From contig JAGGVT010000052.1 of the NCBI GenBank assembly GCA_021157815.1, positions 1 through 18,206 of the forward strand: a DNA stretch of 18,206 bases, written 5' to 3'. The position numbers and the translations under genes were made by a program. Shown here one piece after another: positions 3,423 to 10,055 of the stretch. How positions within the stretch are numbered: position 1 is the stretch's first letter; every line of letters starts with the position of its first letter. The DNA is from a bacterium. Its GTDB lineage: Bacteria > JAJVIF01 > JAGGVT01. The notes under the pieces were generated by a model. That model was not told where the DNA came from and made no database searches. It saw only the letters and a list, made by a program, of their open reading frames with translations.

Positions 3423-5288
3423 ATGAAAATTCAAATAAAAACATACATCCTGATTTTAATAACAATTGGTCTTTCGTTGTCGTGTTCATCAGGGAATGTA
3501 AACGCGCCAAAGTATGATGTCGCGCAACTTGACATAGCGACAGCGCGAGAACGAATGATAAAGGCTGATCAGAAAATACTTTTGTATGGCTTGGACGGCT
3601 TAACCTGGTGCAAACTTGATGCCTACCGAAAACGCGGAATGCTGCCGAATTTTGACAAAATTATAAAAAAAGGCTCATCAGGCAAACTGGAATCTATCAA
3701 CCCGATGTTCTCCATTTCACTGTGGACAACAGTGGTTACAGGCGTCGATTTCGATACTCACGGAGTTCAATACTTCTACAAGATCGGCAAAAACGGGTCG
3801 ATGCTGCCATACACAAGCATCGACAGGAAAGTAAAAGCGTTGTGGAATATCATGGATGATTTGGATGAGCCGTCCGGATGGGTCTCCTGGTGGGGGAGTT
3901 GGCCGGCTGAACCAATTAAGGGATTCAACATCTCGAACTACTTCATTGCTGATTTCGGTTTCAGGGATGTAGAGGAATTGAGCCTTTTCTATCCAGCGGA
4001 TATTTCAGATGAACTTCGCGCCTTGAAAAAGACATACACTGCCGAGTGGGGCGAAACGAAAGCGGACAGGGTCATTGGCGATTTAAGCAGGATTAACAAG
4101 GGCAATCTTGGCAAAGATTACTGGGGCGATTTCAAGTATGGTAGTTTAAACTGGGTTTACGAGAACAAGAAAAACGATTTTCTATATAATTTTCTGAGAA
4201 ACGATTATCGCAACGATGCACTCGCAGTTAATTCGGGATTGCAGATGATGAAGAAATTCGACACTCGCCTGACAGGAATATACTGCAATGGCGTTGATGG
4301 TGTCAGCCATAAATTCTGGAAATATGACAACATCGACATCGCCGCTCCCAAAGAGGCAACGGTAACTCCTGAGGAAAACCTTATGTTTGGTAAAATACTG
4401 AGCGAATATTACTCATATCATGATGAACTCCTCGGACAGGTTCTTGATTCGTTAGATGATAAAACAACTCTGATAATCGTTTCGGACCATGGATTTCAGT
4501 ATGTGCCGAAATCGAATTACATTTCCCTCAACCCGCTTCTTAACAAACTTGGATTTATATCGTTTAAAGACGATGACAAGATTGATCTGGCAACAAGCCT
4601 TGTTCATGAGATCACCGTAAAGCCCTGGGATAAAAAGCGATTTATCAGAATCAACAAGCGGTCGAATGATTTTAAAGACCTTGATGGAACTCCGCTTGGC
4701 GCTGTTAAAGCTGGAAAAGAAGAGGCGGAAGTTCGCAAAAACCTGATTGACGCTCTGAAGAATCTCACGCTAAAAAATTCCGGCATGCGATTGTTCAAGG
4801 AGGTTCGTGAGCCTACAGCAAAAGAGATAAACGAAAACGATGGCCAGGGCGATATTATCGCGCTATTGAATCGAGCGCTGTTTGAATCAAATTTCAAGGA
4901 TGAAATATTATTTCCAGATGGCTCATCTATTTCTCTCGATATGATTGCAATCAGAAATTATCACTCGGGGAATCATGACCAGTTCGACGGCGTTATAATC
5001 ATGGTTGGCCCACTTGCGAAAGAAGGTTACGAAATCAAAAACGCTAGAATGTATGACATAGCGCCGACAATACTGGCAATGCTGGGACTCCCGGTAGCAG
5101 ATTACATGCTGGACAACGGTAAAGTACTGACAGACCAGTTAAAAGATGAATTCGTCAAGGAATTTCCCGTGCAGGTAGTTGAAACATACGGTGAATTCAC
5201 AAACGCATTTTTTGGGCTTGATGTATCAACATCATCCGCAGATGATGAAATCCGCCGTGCCTTGCAGGGCCTTGGATATATGCAGTAA
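3423..5288 (+). CDS. Type I phosphodiesterase / nucleotide pyrophosphatase-like lipoprotein
   Basis: A 621-residue protein of the alkaline phosphatase superfamily, type I phosphodiesterase/nucleotide pyrophosphatase branch (PF01663), a two-metal hydrolase of phosphoester or phosphodiester substrates. Residues 1-20 are a lipoprotein signal with lipobox LSLSC, giving lipidated Cys21. Metal and catalytic residues appear in family order: Asp58 in YGLDGLTW, nucleophile candidate Ser97 in MFSISLWTTVVTG, Asp292 and His296 in VDGVSHKFW, Asp355-His356 in VSDHGF and His518 in GNHDQFDG. DIAPTILAMLGLPV (about 545-558) is the standard C-terminal signature. The protein is therefore probably active and tethered to a membrane facing the periplasm or exterior. 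The start at 3423 has only a weak SD (GCGGGA). The gene ends 11 bp before the first 8-bp repeat array. Substrate unknown; some relatives act on nucleotides, others on phosphonates or phospholipid head groups. Confidence 0.9.
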   Translation: MKIQIKTYILILITIGLSLSCSSGNVNAPKYDVAQLDIATARERMIKADQKILLYGLDGLTWCKLDAYRKRGMLPNFDKIIKKGSSGKLESINPMFSISLWTTVVTGVDFDTHGVQYFYKIGKNGSMLPYTSIDRKVKALWNIMDDLDEPSGWVSWWGSWPAEPIKGFNISNYFIADFGFRDVEELSLFYPADISDELRALKKTYTAEWGETKADRVIGDLSRINKGNLGKDYWGDFKYGSLNWVYENKKNDFLYNFLRNDYRNDALAVNSGLQMMKKFDTRLTGIYCNGVDGVSHKFWKYDNIDIAAPKEATVTPEENLMFGKILSEYYSYHDELLGQVLDSLDDKTTLIIVSDHGFQYVPKSNYISLNPLLNKLGFISFKDDDKIDLATSLVHEITVKPWDKKRFIRINKRSNDFKDLDGTPLGAVKAGKEEAEVRKNLIDALKNLTLKNSGMRLFKEVREPTAKEINENDGQGDIIALLNRALFESNFKDEILFPDGSSISLDMIAIRNYHSGNHDQFDGVIIMVGPLAKEGYEIKNARMYDIAPTILAMLGLPVADYMLDNGKVLTDQLKDEFVKEFPVQVVETYGEFTNAFFGLDVSTSSADDEIRRALQGLGYMQ

Positions 5289-5299
5289 ACGAAAGGAAA

Positions 5300-5459
5300 G
5301 TTAGTAAGTTAGCAGGTTAGTAGGTTAGCAGGTTAGCAAGTTAGCAGGTTAGCAGGTTAGTAGGTTAGAAAGTTAGCAGGTTAGCAGGTTAGTAGGTTAG
5401 CAGGTTAGCAGGTTAGCAGGTTAGTAGGTTAGTAGGTTAGCAGGTTAGTAGGTTAGCAG
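5300..5459 (+). repeat. Array 1: 20 tandem copies of an 8-bp unit (GTTAGYAG)
   Basis: Exactly 20 contiguous 8-bp units, 160 bp, beginning 11 bp after the phosphodiesterase stop codon. The consensus is GTTAGCAG. Position 6 is C in 12 units, T in 7 and A in 1; position 8 is A rather than G in units 1, 5 and 9. Reading position 6 gives T C T C / C C C T / A C C T / C C C T / T C T C, a 32-bp higher-order pattern. The unit length is not a multiple of three, so stop codons (TAG forward, TAA reverse) recur in every frame and the array cannot be translated. There are no spacers, so this is not CRISPR. Confidence 0.97.
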
Positions 5460-5595
5460 GTTGTAGTGAATCCCTGATTCGTGGAGATCGCATTACCAGG
5501 TAAAATATATTATAAAAAGCTAACTAATTTATGAGCATTATGCTATAATTAAAGTTATAAAAGTAGTGGATTAAATACATATAATTGAGCGTTAA
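5460..5595 (+). promoter_or_regulatory. Upstream region of the radical SAM gene with an extended -10 box
   Basis: After array 1 the 136-bp gap is AT-rich and carries TGC-TATAAT at 5541-5549, a perfect extended -10 motif about 47 bp before the ATG at 5596. A -35 match is not convincing. The Shine-Dalgarno signal is weak (TTGAGCG around 5585). No hairpin terminator for the gene upstream of the array is visible here. Confidence 0.55.
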
Positions 5596-7074
5596 ATGAA
5601 CATTCTTCTTATATACCCGAAATTCCCAGACACTTTCTGGAGCTTTAAGCATGCGCTTAAATTCATCCACAAGCAAGCGACATTACCACCGCTTGGTTTG
5701 ATTACTGTCGCCGCTATGCTTCCTGAAAAGTGGAACAAAAAACTGGTAGATCTTAATATCGAGAAATTGACCGAAAAGGATATCGAATGGGCTGATTGTG
5801 TCTTCATCAGCGGAATGATTGTTCAGAAGGAATCCGTTTTGAAGATTATCAATACCTTCCGGGAAAAAGGTATTACAATTGTAGCGGGTGGTCCGTTATT
5901 TACAATCGAACCTGATAGTTTCGATATGGTCGATTACCTGATATTGAACGAAGCTGAAATAACGCTGCCAAAATTCCTTGATGATTTTCAAAATGGAAAA
6001 GCTAAACACATATACACAACCACTGAATTTCCTGATATAAAAGATACACCAGCTCCAATGTGGGAACTTCTCAATTTAAAACGCTATGCCACGATGAGCA
6101 TTCAGTTTTCTCGCGGATGCCCTTTCCATTGTGATTTCTGCAACGTAACTGCGCTTTTTGGCCATAAGGTACGGCTTAAAACCGCTGAACAGATAATCAA
6201 TGAGCTGGACTCTCTTTTCAAACTTGGATGGCGCGATGGCGTGTTTTTTGTGGATGATAATTTAATCGGAAACCGTAAACGCCTGAAAGAAGATCTTTTG
6301 CCGGCTTTGATCGAGTGGCAGAAAAACAAAAAGGGAATTCCGTTTAACACCGAGGTTTCAATTAATCTTGCTGACGATGAAGAAATGATGCAGTTGATGG
6401 TCGATGCCGGTTTCGACACTGTATTCGTAGGCGTCGAAACTCCTGATGAGGACAGCCTTATTGAGTGCAGCAAGAAGCAGAACAAGAATCGCGATATGGT
6501 TGCGGATATTAAACGCATGCAGCATTTTGGCTTGCAGGTTCAGGGCGGATTCATTGTGGGATTTGATAATGACACCGAATCAATTTTCCAGCGCCAGATT
6601 GATTTTATCCAGAAAAGCGGAATTGTAACAGCGATGGTAGGACTTCTCCAGGCTCCTCCAGGCACAAAACTGTATGATAGGTTGAAGCGTGAAAATCGTA
6701 TAATAGGGGATACATCGGGGGATAATGTTGATGGCACCACAAACATTATTCCGAGAATGAATATTGATACTCTAAGAGAAGGATACAAAAATATACTCGA
6801 AAGCATATACGCGCCAAAGCCATATTACCAGCGTGTCACAACATTCCTTCGGGAATACAAAGCTCCGAAAATAAAAACCCCGATTCGAGCGCATAGTATA
6901 ATGGCAATGTTAGAATCAATCGTTCTGCTGGGAATCATCGGAAAAGAGCGAAAATACTACTGGAGACTAATTTTATGGACATTCGTAAGGCGTCCAAAAC
7001 TAATCTCTATCGCGTTTACGCTTGCAATCTACGGACACCACTTCAGAAAAATCTGCGATATGCATGTAGTGTAA
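5596..7074 (+). CDS. B12-binding-domain radical SAM protein (DUF4070-type)
   Basis: A 492-residue cytoplasmic enzyme with an N-terminal cobalamin-binding fold (about 1-135; opening NILLIYPKFPDTFW and the PPLGLITVAAMLP block), then a radical SAM core. The cluster ligands are Cys175, Cys179 and Cys182 in RGCPFHCDFC (CxxxCxxC). The core continues through the VFFVDDNLIGN strand (about 217-227), VFVGVETPDEDSL and GGFIVGFDNDT. The C-terminal approx. 130 residues match the DUF4070-type tail seen in this family. Relatives include the hopanoid C-2 methylase HpnP and many uncharacterised proteins, so a methyltransfer reaction on an unactivated carbon is the likely chemistry, but the substrate is unknown and no hopanoid genes are nearby. 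It is transcribed alone from an extended -10 promoter; the 230-bp gap to proS contains a long hairpin and another promoter. Confidence 0.9.
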   Translation: MNILLIYPKFPDTFWSFKHALKFIHKQATLPPLGLITVAAMLPEKWNKKLVDLNIEKLTEKDIEWADCVFISGMIVQKESVLKIINTFREKGITIVAGGPLFTIEPDSFDMVDYLILNEAEITLPKFLDDFQNGKAKHIYTTTEFPDIKDTPAPMWELLNLKRYATMSIQFSRGCPFHCDFCNVTALFGHKVRLKTAEQIINELDSLFKLGWRDGVFFVDDNLIGNRKRLKEDLLPALIEWQKNKKGIPFNTEVSINLADDEEMMQLMVDAGFDTVFVGVETPDEDSLIECSKKQNKNRDMVADIKRMQHFGLQVQGGFIVGFDNDTESIFQRQIDFIQKSGIVTAMVGLLQAPPGTKLYDRLKRENRIIGDTSGDNVDGTTNIIPRMNIDTLREGYKNILESIYAPKPYYQRVTTFLREYKAPKIKTPIRAHSIMAMLESIVLLGIIGKERKYYWRLILWTFVRRPKLISIAFTLAIYGHHFRKICDMHVV

Positions 7075-7122
7075 ATTATTTATCCCAATTGTAATATGAT
7101 AATAAATAATATTCGGAACGCT

Positions 7123-7189
7123 GACAGACTTGGGACTGTTGAAAAGGCCTACGGTACTAACAAGGTTTTTCAACAAGCCCAGACTTGTC
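7123..7189. repeat. Long imperfect inverted repeat upstream of proS
   Basis: Arms 7123-7145 and 7167-7189 match at 17 of 23 positions as reverse complements; the inner nine (TGTTGAAAA with TTTTCAACA) are perfect and the loop is 21 nt. It lies 48 bp after the radical SAM stop codon and could act as that gene's transcript end, but the run after it is not T-rich. It resembles a short palindromic intergenic element rather than a T-box: I see no AGGGTGG-type antiterminator box near proS. Confidence 0.55.
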
Positions 7190-7208
7190 CGCATTTTCTA
7201 AAATTTAA

Positions 7209-7239
7209 TTTACGCAATCTTCACTCCGATTGTTATAAT
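7209..7239 (+). promoter_or_regulatory. Candidate extended -10 promoter of proS
   Basis: TGT-TATAAT at 7231-7239 is a perfect extended -10 element. A poor -35-like TTTACG lies at 7209-7214 with 19-bp spacing. Transcription would start near 7246, giving a leader of about 60 nt that begins after the hairpin at 7123-7189. Confidence 0.6.
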
Positions 7240-7304
7240 GATTTCTTTTATAAGGACTTGATTTCGGATTGATTTCCGCTTTCAAACCAAACAATGTGGA
7301 GTAG

Positions 7305-9053
7305 ATGATGAAACTGAGCCATTTCCTGATGCCGACCTTGAAAGAGGTGCCCTCCGAGGCTGATACGCGCGCGCACAGCCTGATGCTTCGCGCGGGGTTG
7401 ATTAGACGTCTCACCGCTGGAGTACATTCGTTTCTGCCTCTTGGATGGCGCGTGATGAAAAATATCGAGCGTATTATCCGCGAGGAGCAAAATCGTTTCG
7501 ATTGCCAGGAAATAAACATGCCGGTTTTAAATCCGCGTGAATTATGGGAAGAATCCAATCGATGGACTGATTTCGGAGATGTTCTTTTTCGCTTGAAAGA
7601 CCGCAGGGGTAGAGACCTATGTCTTGGTCCAACACATGAGGAGGTAATTACAGACCTTGCGCGCTCGTTCATCACAAGTTATCGTGAACTTCCGCAAACA
7701 TGGTATCAAATTCAAACCAAATTTCGTGATGAGGCTCGCCCACGAGCGGGTGTAATTCGCGGACGCCAGTTCACCATGATGGATGCATATTCATTCGATT
7801 ATTCGCAGGAAGGCCTGGATAAATCGTATGAAAACCAACGGATTATCTACGAGAGAATTTATAATCGATGTGGGCTGGAATACTCGTTGGTAGGTGCATC
7901 ATCCGGATTAATGGGCGGAACAGGAAGCCAGGAATTCATGCAGCTTACTCCCGATGGCGAGGACACTGTCATTACCTGCGAGAAATGCGGGTACGCAGCC
8001 AACAGTGAGGTAGCGCAAAGCAGATTGAATCAGGTAAGTGAGGTCGTTGAGAATCCTCATGAACCTGAGGACGTTCACACGCCTGATAAAAAAACAATAG
8101 CCGCTGTTTCAGAATTTCTTGGTGTTCGACCAATGGACTTGATGAAATCAGTGCTTGTAATGGCTGACGACAAACCTGTACTAGCGTTGATTCGCGGTGA
8201 TCTTGAGGTAAACGAGACAAAACTTATGACCGCAATAGGCGCTGAATACAGAGCGATGGAGCCTCATGAAATAGTTGAAATGGCAGGAGCGGATGCCGGA
8301 TTCATTGGTCCTATCGGATGGAAAACAAAACCCTGGATTATTGTTGATGAATCGATTGTGGAAGGCGCATCTTATATTTCTGGCGCGAATAAGAATGATT
8401 ATCATATTAAGAATATTGTACCTGGCCGCGATTTTTCCATGAAGACAGTGAAAGATATCCGTGTAGTTAAAGATGGAGAGGGGTGTCCGAATTGCGACTC
8501 CAAAATAAAAATAAGTCGCGCGGTGGAACTTGGCCATATTTTCAAACTGGGAACGAAATATTCAAAAGCAATGGGCGCGAAATACACTGATTCTGAAGGC
8601 GCGGATAATCCGCTGATAATGGGCTGTTACGGAATCGGGCTTGAACGAATAATGTCAGGCGCTGTGGACACTCACGCGGATGATTTTGGAATAATCTGGC
8701 CTGCTACAATCGCGCCGTTTGATTTTATAATCATCTCACTCATGCAGACTGAATCATCGATCATGGAAACCGCTAAGAATATCTATGAAAAACTGAAGGG
8801 ACTTGGCAAGGATGTTTTATGGGATAACCGGGAATATAATCCGGGTGTTAAATTCAAGGATGCTGATTTAATCGGAATTCCAATTCATCTTGTAATCGGA
8901 AAGAACTTTTTAAAGGATGGATTGGTTGAGATTAAGATTCGCAAAACAGGCGAGAGAAGGAAAATCAAACCTAAGGTCGCGATTGAGGAGTTGATGAAAA
9001 TCCATCATGAGCTGATCAACGAGTTGAATGATAGCGCGGATCAGGTGAAATGA
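7305..9053 (+). CDS. proS: Prolyl-tRNA synthetase, bacterial type with editing domain
   Basis: A 582-residue class II aminoacyl-tRNA synthetase that charges tRNA-Pro, in full bacterial (ProS type 1) architecture. The opening TLKEVPSEADTRAHSLMLRAG is diagnostic. The proline-binding TxE loop is Thr110-His-Glu112, motif 2 is FRDEARPRAGVIRGRQF (140-156), and motif 3 is GCYGIGLERIM (440-450). The INS (YbaK-like) editing domain against mischarged alanine fills about 225-390 and keeps a Lys (281, DLMKSVLV) where the E. coli domain has its important Lys. Two CxxC pairs (Cys225/228 and Cys394/397) border this domain and may bind zinc. The anticodon-binding domain is about 465-570. Two adjacent ATGs exist (7305 and 7308); the GTGGAG site at 7296-7301 is better spaced for 7308, which would drop one Met. 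The gene is monocistronic, ending in a palindrome at 9083. Confidence 0.98.
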   Translation: MMKLSHFLMPTLKEVPSEADTRAHSLMLRAGLIRRLTAGVHSFLPLGWRVMKNIERIIREEQNRFDCQEINMPVLNPRELWEESNRWTDFGDVLFRLKDRRGRDLCLGPTHEEVITDLARSFITSYRELPQTWYQIQTKFRDEARPRAGVIRGRQFTMMDAYSFDYSQEGLDKSYENQRIIYERIYNRCGLEYSLVGASSGLMGGTGSQEFMQLTPDGEDTVITCEKCGYAANSEVAQSRLNQVSEVVENPHEPEDVHTPDKKTIAAVSEFLGVRPMDLMKSVLVMADDKPVLALIRGDLEVNETKLMTAIGAEYRAMEPHEIVEMAGADAGFIGPIGWKTKPWIIVDESIVEGASYISGANKNDYHIKNIVPGRDFSMKTVKDIRVVKDGEGCPNCDSKIKISRAVELGHIFKLGTKYSKAMGAKYTDSEGADNPLIMGCYGIGLERIMSGAVDTHADDFGIIWPATIAPFDFIIISLMQTESSIMETAKNIYEKLKGLGKDVLWDNREYNPGVKFKDADLIGIPIHLVIGKNFLKDGLVEIKIRKTGERRKIKPKVAIEELMKIHHELINELNDSADQVK

Positions 9054-9082
9054 TACTTACGGATTGTTGTTTGGGATTTATT

Positions 9083-9120
9083 AATGTAGGGGTGGGTTTT
9101 AAACCCACCCCTACATTTTT
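9083..9120. terminator. Perfect 17-bp palindrome with T-tail, proS terminator and dispersed repeat
   Basis: AATGTAGGGGTGGGTTT (9083-9099) is the exact reverse complement of 9101-9117, and TTTTT follows (9116-9120). It starts 29 bp after the proS stop and is a strong intrinsic terminator. The arms have A-runs on the other side, so it is less obvious as a terminator for the minus strand. The wording GTAGGGGTGGGTTT...ACCCACCCCTAC is that of a dispersed palindrome family seen in many bacterial genomes, so a repeat copy is probably serving as terminator. Confidence 0.8.
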
Positions 9121-9160
9121 ATCACCGTTTTATATTTCCAAATTTATTCAAAAACCAAAC

Positions 9161-9320
9161 CTGCTAACCTGATAACCTACTAATCTACTAACCTACTAAC
9201 CTGCTAACCTGCTAACCTACTAACCTGCTAACCTACTAACCTGCTAACCTGCTAACCTGCTAACCTGCTAACCTACTAACCTGCTAACTTATTAACCTGC
9301 TAACCTGCTAACTTATTAAC
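9161..9320 (-). repeat. Array 2: 20 tandem copies of the same 8-bp unit, inverted
   Basis: Twenty contiguous 8-bp units (CTGCTAAC on the plus strand, GTTAGCAG on the minus), 160 bp, the same unit and copy number as array 1 but in opposite orientation. Read on the minus strand from 9320, the variants are: GTTAATAA in units 1 and 4, T at position 6 in six units including ATTAGTAG in unit 18, and GTTATCAG in unit 19; the rest are the C form. The order of variants differs from array 1, so it is not a recent exact copy. The first 21 bp (9300-9320) overlap the end of the DUF502 gene. Flanking sequences differ from those of array 1. Confidence 0.97.
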
Positions 9321-9959
9321 CTTCACCTCATCTCCTAAAACCTGCGGAGCGAGAGCGCCAAGCGATAGAAGCACTTTGCTCATCTCCTCGAAAGTCAAAT
9401 CACACTCAAAGACATCATCAACCGGGATTAAATAGTTAAAACCCGTTGCCGGCATCGGCGTGGATGGAAAATATATCATTACATGCGAAACGTCATTTAT
9501 CATAAAAGATTTTTTGCTCGACAAAAGCCCCATAACCATCATGTTCGCATACTTGACCAGAACGACCTCACCGAAGCTGCCAATCTTCTCGTCCTTTTTA
9601 CCGATAAAGCCAACGATTTGCTCGGCTGTGTTATAGACAGTATTAACGACTGGAAAATGATCCATAATTTTTTTGGCATTATCCTGAAAACGGATTTTAG
9701 CGTATCGCCTTATCATATAACCGAAAAGAGCAATTATCAAAATTACCAAAAGGTAACTTAAAACAAGAATCGCGGTGTGTGAAAATCCGATTTCAGTTGA
9801 TATCTTGCCAAGTATATGCCCAATAAAGCTGCTTTTACCGAGAAGAACATTAATCTTCACAACCAGCCAGCCAAGGAGTCCAAAGGTAATCATCAACGGC
9901 AAAAGAGTGATGAGACCATAAAGAAAATGGTTGCCGAATCGCTTAAGTAAAGCTTTCAT
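9300..9959 (-). CDS. DUF502 family inner-membrane protein
   Basis: A 219-residue integral membrane protein of the DUF502 (PF04367) family, function unknown. Using ATG at 9959, the protein starts MKALLKRFGNHFLYGLITLLPL, the standard family beginning, with two membrane segments (about 13-38 and 60-83). The conserved soluble part contains HFPVVNTVYNTAEQIV, YFPSTPMPATGF and PVDDV. An upstream TTG at 10055 would add 32 residues, but these do not resemble the family and the candidate promoter lies inside that stretch. The last codons (V-N-K-L-A-G and the TAG stop) are written entirely in units of the 8-bp repeat array, so the array has replaced or been grown from the original 3' end. It is convergent with proS and divergent from the activase operon. 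Confidence 0.88.
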   Translation of the reverse strand: MKALLKRFGNHFLYGLITLLPLMITFGLLGWLVVKINVLLGKSSFIGHILGKISTEIGFSHTAILVLSYLLVILIIALFGYMIRRYAKIRFQDNAKKIMDHFPVVNTVYNTAEQIVGFIGKKDEKIGSFGEVVLVKYANMMVMGLLSSKKSFMINDVSHVMIYFPSTPMPATGFNYLIPVDDVFECDLTFEEMSKVLLSLGALAPQVLGDEVKVNKLAG

Positions 9960-10026
9960 AGATAAACCGCCATAATATGAGTTCTCAAAACAAATATTAC
10001 TGATTAAATTCAATTCAGTTTCATTA

Positions 10027-10055
10027 ATTATATCGACTCTTGACGCTGGATACAA
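10027..10055 (-). promoter_or_regulatory. Candidate promoter for the DUF502 gene
   Basis: On the minus strand, TTGTAT (10055-10050) and TATAAT (10032-10027) are separated by 17 bp. Transcription would start near 10020, about 60 nt before the ATG at 9959. This supports the shorter DUF502 start. Confidence 0.45.

Follow-up and report, generated by a model that had tools for sequence, protein, structure and literature searches.

Two tandem arrays of one 8-bp unit, equal in length and inverted with respect to each other, lie at gene ends on either side of a radical SAM–proS segment in the window, i.e., the whole stretch of 18,206 nt of bacterial DNA analysed here (contig JAGGVT010000052.1 of assembly GCA_021157815.1). 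Do the two arrays belong together as the borders of that segment, or are they members of a larger family with a positional rule of its own? The relevant features are collected in Table 1.

Table 1. Arrays, genes and palindrome at and between the two array loci of the window.
Feature	Position	Strand	Remarks
Type I phosphodiesterase/nucleotide pyrophosphatase gene	3423..5288	+	PF01663, 2e-27
Array 1: 20 octamers GTTAGYAR, 160 bp	5300..5459	+	19/20 units perfect
Radical SAM protein gene, B12-binding and DUF4070 domains	5596..7074	+	inter-array segment
proS, prolyl-tRNA synthetase	7305..9053	+	tRNA-synt_2b, tRNA_edit, HGTP_anticodon; inter-array segment
Palindrome GTAGGGGTGGGTTTTAAACCCACCCC, GTAG-headed, followed by T's	~9087..9120	+	REP-like, terminator-like; between proS and array 2; read from the sequence
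Array 2: 20 octamers, 160 bp	9161..9320	-	16/20 units perfect GTTAGYAR
DUF502 gene	9300..10055	-	PF04367, full profile matched at residues 102-204 of 251

A preliminary description had placed the arrays at these coordinates, on opposite strands and with the same length and number of units, and this is what we found, provided that degenerate units are included in the count of 20 for both (in array 2, GTTAATAA, which occurs twice, ATTAGTAG and GTTATCAG). The order of the unit variants and the outer flanks do differ between the two arrays. The unit had been given as GTTAGYAG, but is better written GTTAGYAR when the whole genome is considered. Two-unit matches number 27 in the window against 0.00 in shuffled sequences, so that the arrays are not there by chance. 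It had also been noticed that each array starts at the 3′ end of a gene and reads in the sense direction, and the gene ends agree with this: the stop codon of the phosphodiesterase gene is located 11 bp upstream of array 1, and the DUF502 gene runs into array 2, with its TAG stop (9302-9300) and its last residues (KVNKLAG) consisting of array sequence. The DUF502 gene shows no visible truncation, since the whole of its Pfam domain lies well ahead of the array-derived end. Two other repeats were seen in the window: positions 7120-7195 hold a copy of a dispersed repeat with CTGTTGAAAA and a TTTTTCAACA arm (related 12-mers recur in the intergenic DNA covered, with up to 69 occurrences), and positions 5-122 hold AACAAGCTTCTGYAATTCCGG tandem repeats with a 21-bp unit, in two short blocks.

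The window is one contig (C63) of a draft genome of 3.22 Mb in 221 contigs, which is 90.9% complete. Exact matches to three successive units amount to 1,437 in this genome, and there is none to the reversed pattern. The same search in 58 other genomes, which include three from the same class, returned no match, and comparable arrays were absent from 195 kb of same-class relatives. In all, we identified 81 arrays with four or more units in the 1.47 Mb that were read (46% of the genome, in 121 stretches partly picked for holding arrays, plus searches); they have between 5 and 41 units with a median of 19, degenerate units counted. Scaled by the exact matches, the genome would carry about 118 arrays in total, at a slightly lower number of loci, since three pairs of arrays sit at matching contig ends. 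Most units are GTTAGCAG, GTTAGTAA, GTTAGCAA or GTTAGTAG. The exact correspondence of 20 with 20 units, noted in the preliminary description, loses its significance in this company: 19 of the 81 arrays have 19–21 units, and the equal length of the two window arrays is unremarkable given the family median.

Genes were called with a home-made, simple ORF caller scored on hexamers. For 46 of 77 arrays examined, the array starts between −21 and +14 bp from the stop codon of a gene on its own strand; array and stop codon overlap in 22 genes. The most frequent offset, shared by 14 arrays, is exactly −5: here, the gene terminates at the TAG contained in the first GTTAG. Amongst the 62 arrays that lie between two called genes, 39 are anchored at a stop, where 2.8 were expected under a null model that puts each array at a random place in its own intergenic gap, in random orientation (20,000 simulations; maximum 10). 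On the 3′ side of the arrays, by comparison, the nearest convergent stop codon is 19 bp away. None of 68 arrays checked is located inside a called gene. As regards phase-variation repeats, in which a reading frame or promoter is switched by the number of units, the GTTAGYAR unit puts TAG or TAA into every reading frame, and the arrays are situated past stop codons. It is this polarity, rather than the window pair, that is the strong pattern: most arrays begin at or near a stop codon and carry GTTAG on the coding strand, and their lengths differ by whole 8-bp units. The genome-wide family with a fixed orientation at gene ends that had been surmised from two arrays is, therefore, strongly supported; the search for other arrays and the tally of their orientations, both proposed at the time, revealed neither a random orientation nor a genome devoid of further arrays.

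Not all arrays follow a protein gene. At the 5′ side of 25 of the 77 arrays there is a divergent gene start instead of a stop codon. In the 19 such cases tested, the array is on the non-coding strand at a median distance of 72 bp from the start, with few within 50 bp; these arrays are nearer to the start than random (KS p 0.013), albeit that the effect is far weaker than the stop codon rule. Three arrays occur behind a terminator, and one (L064) behind a sequence like the 3′ end of a tRNA, which was noticed on reading and not by a scan. Antisense termination of the Rho type was considered and rejected, because only 13 of 62 arrays are located between convergent genes.

The same rule operates in a prophage. 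The sequence L136 (IMGVR_UViG_3300016457_001200) matches G000:C167:8528-12288, a prophage late region; its identity to contig C167 is 100% in the first 2.1 kb of the comparison. Three consecutive prophage genes, for portal, prohead protease (with a match that scores just under the Pfam cut-off) and capsid, are each flanked by an array and end at −5, −5 and +3 from it, respectively. The phage genes of such a late stretch normally lie close together. Since the three genes end flush with arrays, acquired DNA, too, has been colonised by arrays, under the same positional rule. A dispersed repeat of ~200 bp, with more than 25 genomic copies at 80–98% identity, was seen just downstream of arrays; in L136, it is on the minus strand, at about bases 890-1115 of the 3.6-kb query.

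It is next to inconceivable that the arrays are chance microsatellites or an artefact of the assembly. Arrays are frequently found at contig ends, and copy numbers in a draft are uncertain, but the wholly one-sided tally of triple-unit matches, their absence from the 58 other genomes and the excess of stop-anchored arrays over expectation all count against chance and artefact, while an independent metagenome assembly carries the same arrays.

The inverted orientation of the window pair follows from the convergence of the two host genes. Arrays of both orientations occur throughout the genome, and a functional bracket around the radical SAM–proS segment is not supported. The preliminary description had also raised the prospect that recombination between the two arrays flips this 3.7-kb segment, for which they would seem suited as 160-bp inverted repeats of high identity. 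However, the segment contains proS and no recombinase, and neither an inverted contig nor an inversion junction was seen; we consider an invertible segment very improbable. One place in the assembly has some bearing on it. Two contigs (G000:C166:48-191 and C137:19-178; L092 and L107) agree in the flank upstream of an array and in its first 12 units, while the later units and the downstream flanks differ. One upstream flank with two downstream flanks could result from recombination between arrays, but can be read equally well as a branch in the assembly. A duplex of array 1 with array 2 within one long transcript is possible in principle, provided that transcription passes the hairpin-plus-T's between proS and array 2.

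Alternatively, the arrays could be 3′ UTR elements under selection, the sense RNA forming, by self-pairing immediately behind the stop codon, a long zipper that would insulate against re-initiation by ribosomes or shield the 3′ end of the mRNA, in the manner of the ribosome termination structure. GUUAGC is self-complementary if wobble pairs are allowed, and the computed folds of the two window arrays are much more stable in sense than in antisense RNA (−39.7 versus −6.5 and −41.0 versus −7.4 kcal/mol), with z-scores of −8.0 and −9.1 for the respective sense folds against shuffled sequences. Over 66 arrays, the values are −25.3 (sense) versus −4.7 (antisense) per 100 nt, and stable structures right behind stop codons are widespread (PMC7518266). 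As single-stranded DNA, the arrays do not fold on either strand, and orientation is thus structurally relevant only as RNA. The z-scores, however, become meaningless against periodic controls with permuted units: equally good folds are obtained for 30 of 60 octamers in which the bases of the unit are rearranged, and GTTAGYAR ranks 86th of 210, so that the fold follows from composition and periodicity. Moreover, the first 80 nt of the arrays are barely more stable than ordinary post-stop sequence (−20.0 versus −17.1), the majority of genes do without an array, and copy number varies. With permuted units and ordinary post-stop sequence so nearly equal, the folding is no evidence of selection, and we have discarded RNA structure as proof of it; a selected 3′ UTR element is the chief alternative to the reading preferred below, but a minority one to which we allow limited weight.

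How do arrays originate? Local birth from seed sequences was rejected: isolated units are almost missing after the stop codons of genes that lack an array (three of 953 in the bin from +0 to +9), by which growth from such seeds seems unlikely. Encroachment that overwrites the 3′ UTR was likewise dismissed, since terminators are still present behind the arrays. They occur behind seven of 42 stop-flush arrays (some of these seven cases may be REP hairpins), at a median distance of 35 bp, as compared to 94 of 517 ordinary stops with a median of 36 bp, over an antisense background of 6%. That the distance to the terminator is the same with and without an array suggests, on small numbers, that the array was inserted as a block between stop codon and terminator. 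No empty site turned up in the relatives compared, the nearest of which are from the same class only.

Once in place, arrays seem to change in length. The variants of the unit match each other less than expected at lag 1 (z −7.2) and more than expected at lags 2 and 4 (z +5.1 and +4.3, respectively), which fits with duplication of unit pairs. The copy-number change expected from the preliminary description is supported by whole-unit differences between near-identical copies of a locus: contigs with identical flanks have 18 versus 23 and 19 versus 29 units, and L136 and C167 differ at one array (4 versus 9 units) and at a second, where L136 is 120 bp (15 units) shorter, although copy numbers derived from assemblies are prone to repeat miscounts and any single case could be an assembly error. 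A comparison of the first four units with the last four shows the former to be cleaner in 37 arrays and the latter in nine. Addition of units by a reverse transcriptase, telomerase-like or retro, was rejected as unlikely, as the ~91% complete genome gave no RVT_1 match. XisH, suggested by earlier work on other repeats (PMC4679880), gave no match in the genome either, but the control genomes gave none as well, so that this negative carries no information.

A further candidate for dispersal is provided by the HUH (Y1) transposases of REP palindromes, for which the GTAG in GTTAGTAG could serve as a recognition site, the arrays travelling as parts of REP clusters. The genome has nine Y1 transposase genes, two of which (L188 and L189; G000:C182 and C85) are surrounded by GTAG/GTAA-CCCGG...CCGGG palindromes in a REPtron-like manner. 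Palindromes of the CCCGG...CCGGG type occur within 80 bp behind 15 out of 74 arrays, as compared to 40 out of 478 ordinary stops, and REPs are found mainly downstream of genes (PMC3733652). Nevertheless, arrays are not a regular companion of the eight Y1 loci inspected, which yielded just one array of two units and one of nine, and many array units lack GTAG. Several unrelated repeat families succeed the arrays, at odds with spread by Y1 enzymes and with a fixed composite; for the same reason, we abandoned the idea that the array forms the 5′ portion of a single, fixed mobile element. The Y1 transposases appear to be tied to the REP palindromes rather than to the arrays, and we think it rather improbable that they spread the latter.

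The reading that we prefer, with middling confidence, is that of a polar, lineage-specific array family, inserted in blocks at stop codons, altered by slippage and mostly neutral. Array blocks would be inserted after the stop codon and ahead of the native 3′ UTR or terminator, rather than grow from local seeds; slippage or unequal exchange would subsequently lengthen or shorten them, often by two units per step, with the gene-proximal end staying clean and the distal end decaying. The array itself would encode no product. Gene ends would capture copies of array DNA through a strand-biased process tied to transcription and translation, and such capture may be the reason for the stop codon anchor: where ribosomes leave the transcript, the coding strand may be most exposed and R-loops likeliest. 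Most copies would then be neutral passengers in the 3′ UTR. The genome is a favourable one in this respect, since resequencing could trace the birth and growth of its arrays, which occur in large numbers, have many units, meet stop codons with near base precision, vary in length and extend into a prophage.

Similar arrays are rare elsewhere. A scan for nearly four units in one genome each of 84,980 species, a collection that may omit the window's own records, returned just 25 stretches, from Moorena, Bacteroidota, Gammaproteobacteria and a few others. Sixteen of the 25 arrays start between −21 and +30 bp from the point where a long ORF ends on the same strand (not all independent cases, since there are copies amongst the Moorena loci), versus two the opposite way and 3% of random points. 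In three Moorena genomes (L114, L132 and L135), near-identical array flanks were seen behind ORFs of different length. The Moorena loci suggest that an array-carrying element was moved or inherited in that genus.

Dispersed tandem arrays of short units are known from cyanobacteria as short tandemly repeated repetitive sequences (STRR), which are heptamers. Amongst the matches listed in a literature search for the literal GTTAGYAR units, all look unrelated. GTAG REPs with their RAYTs are likewise high-copy, dispersed and mainly downstream of coding regions (PMC3733652), and REP-like palindromes and Y1 transposases are both present in this genome; REPs, however, are palindromes of 20–40 bp with GTAG at one end, and the GTTAGYAR arrays are not palindromic as DNA. 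The TAACTGA heptamers of marine Beggiatoaceae, Cyanobacteria and Bacteroidetes, with 169 sets in one genome (MacGregor 2015, PMC4679880), share with GTTAGYAR the anchor at a gene edge, the fixed orientation, the stop codons in the repeat and the patchy occurrence over unrelated phyla, but they mostly have 2–6 units and are found just before start codons, whereas GTTAGYAR follows stops.

The closest parallel is offered by the heptamer arrays of GGGAATC in Xanthomonas and GGGGA(T/C)T in Nostoc, which are subject to the same polar rule and to which Rehm et al. (2015) assigned no function (PMC4692102). These are located at a mean of 28 nt from the ORF on their 5′ side and 160 nt from the next, are on the non-coding strand near gene starts, vary in length and are not associated with any functional class of host genes (PMC4692102). 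Repeat families with different units, in unrelated bacteria, are placed at gene edges by a single polar rule, and a shared cause, mutational or selective, is suggested by it; this convergence is the interesting part. Tandem repeats could be captured at stop codons, with fixed polarity and across phyla, by a process that senses where translation ends, and this could account for the origin of both GTTAGYAR and GGGAATC, the families arising independently by way of the exposed coding strand, an R-loop or a linked repair pathway, and perhaps for TAACTGA at starts, a generalisation that we put forward tentatively and would not expect to hold. The GTTAGYAR family is a real, new variant of a kind already described. 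Like the Rehm arrays, it is high-copy and mostly intergenic with a single short unit per genome, and its downstream arrays are placed as in those, on the coding strand, 0–50 bp past the stop codon and in some cases overlapping it (PMC4692102). It differs in that GTTAGYAR lacks the run of three Gs needed for quadruplexes, whereas the Rehm units are G-rich, and in that its arrays have a median of 19 units versus a preferred number of four (PMC4692102), for which we place it with the wider kind and not in the G4 family; it is, moreover, an octamer with a tighter anchor (often 0 bp), in a deeply separate lineage and also in a prophage.
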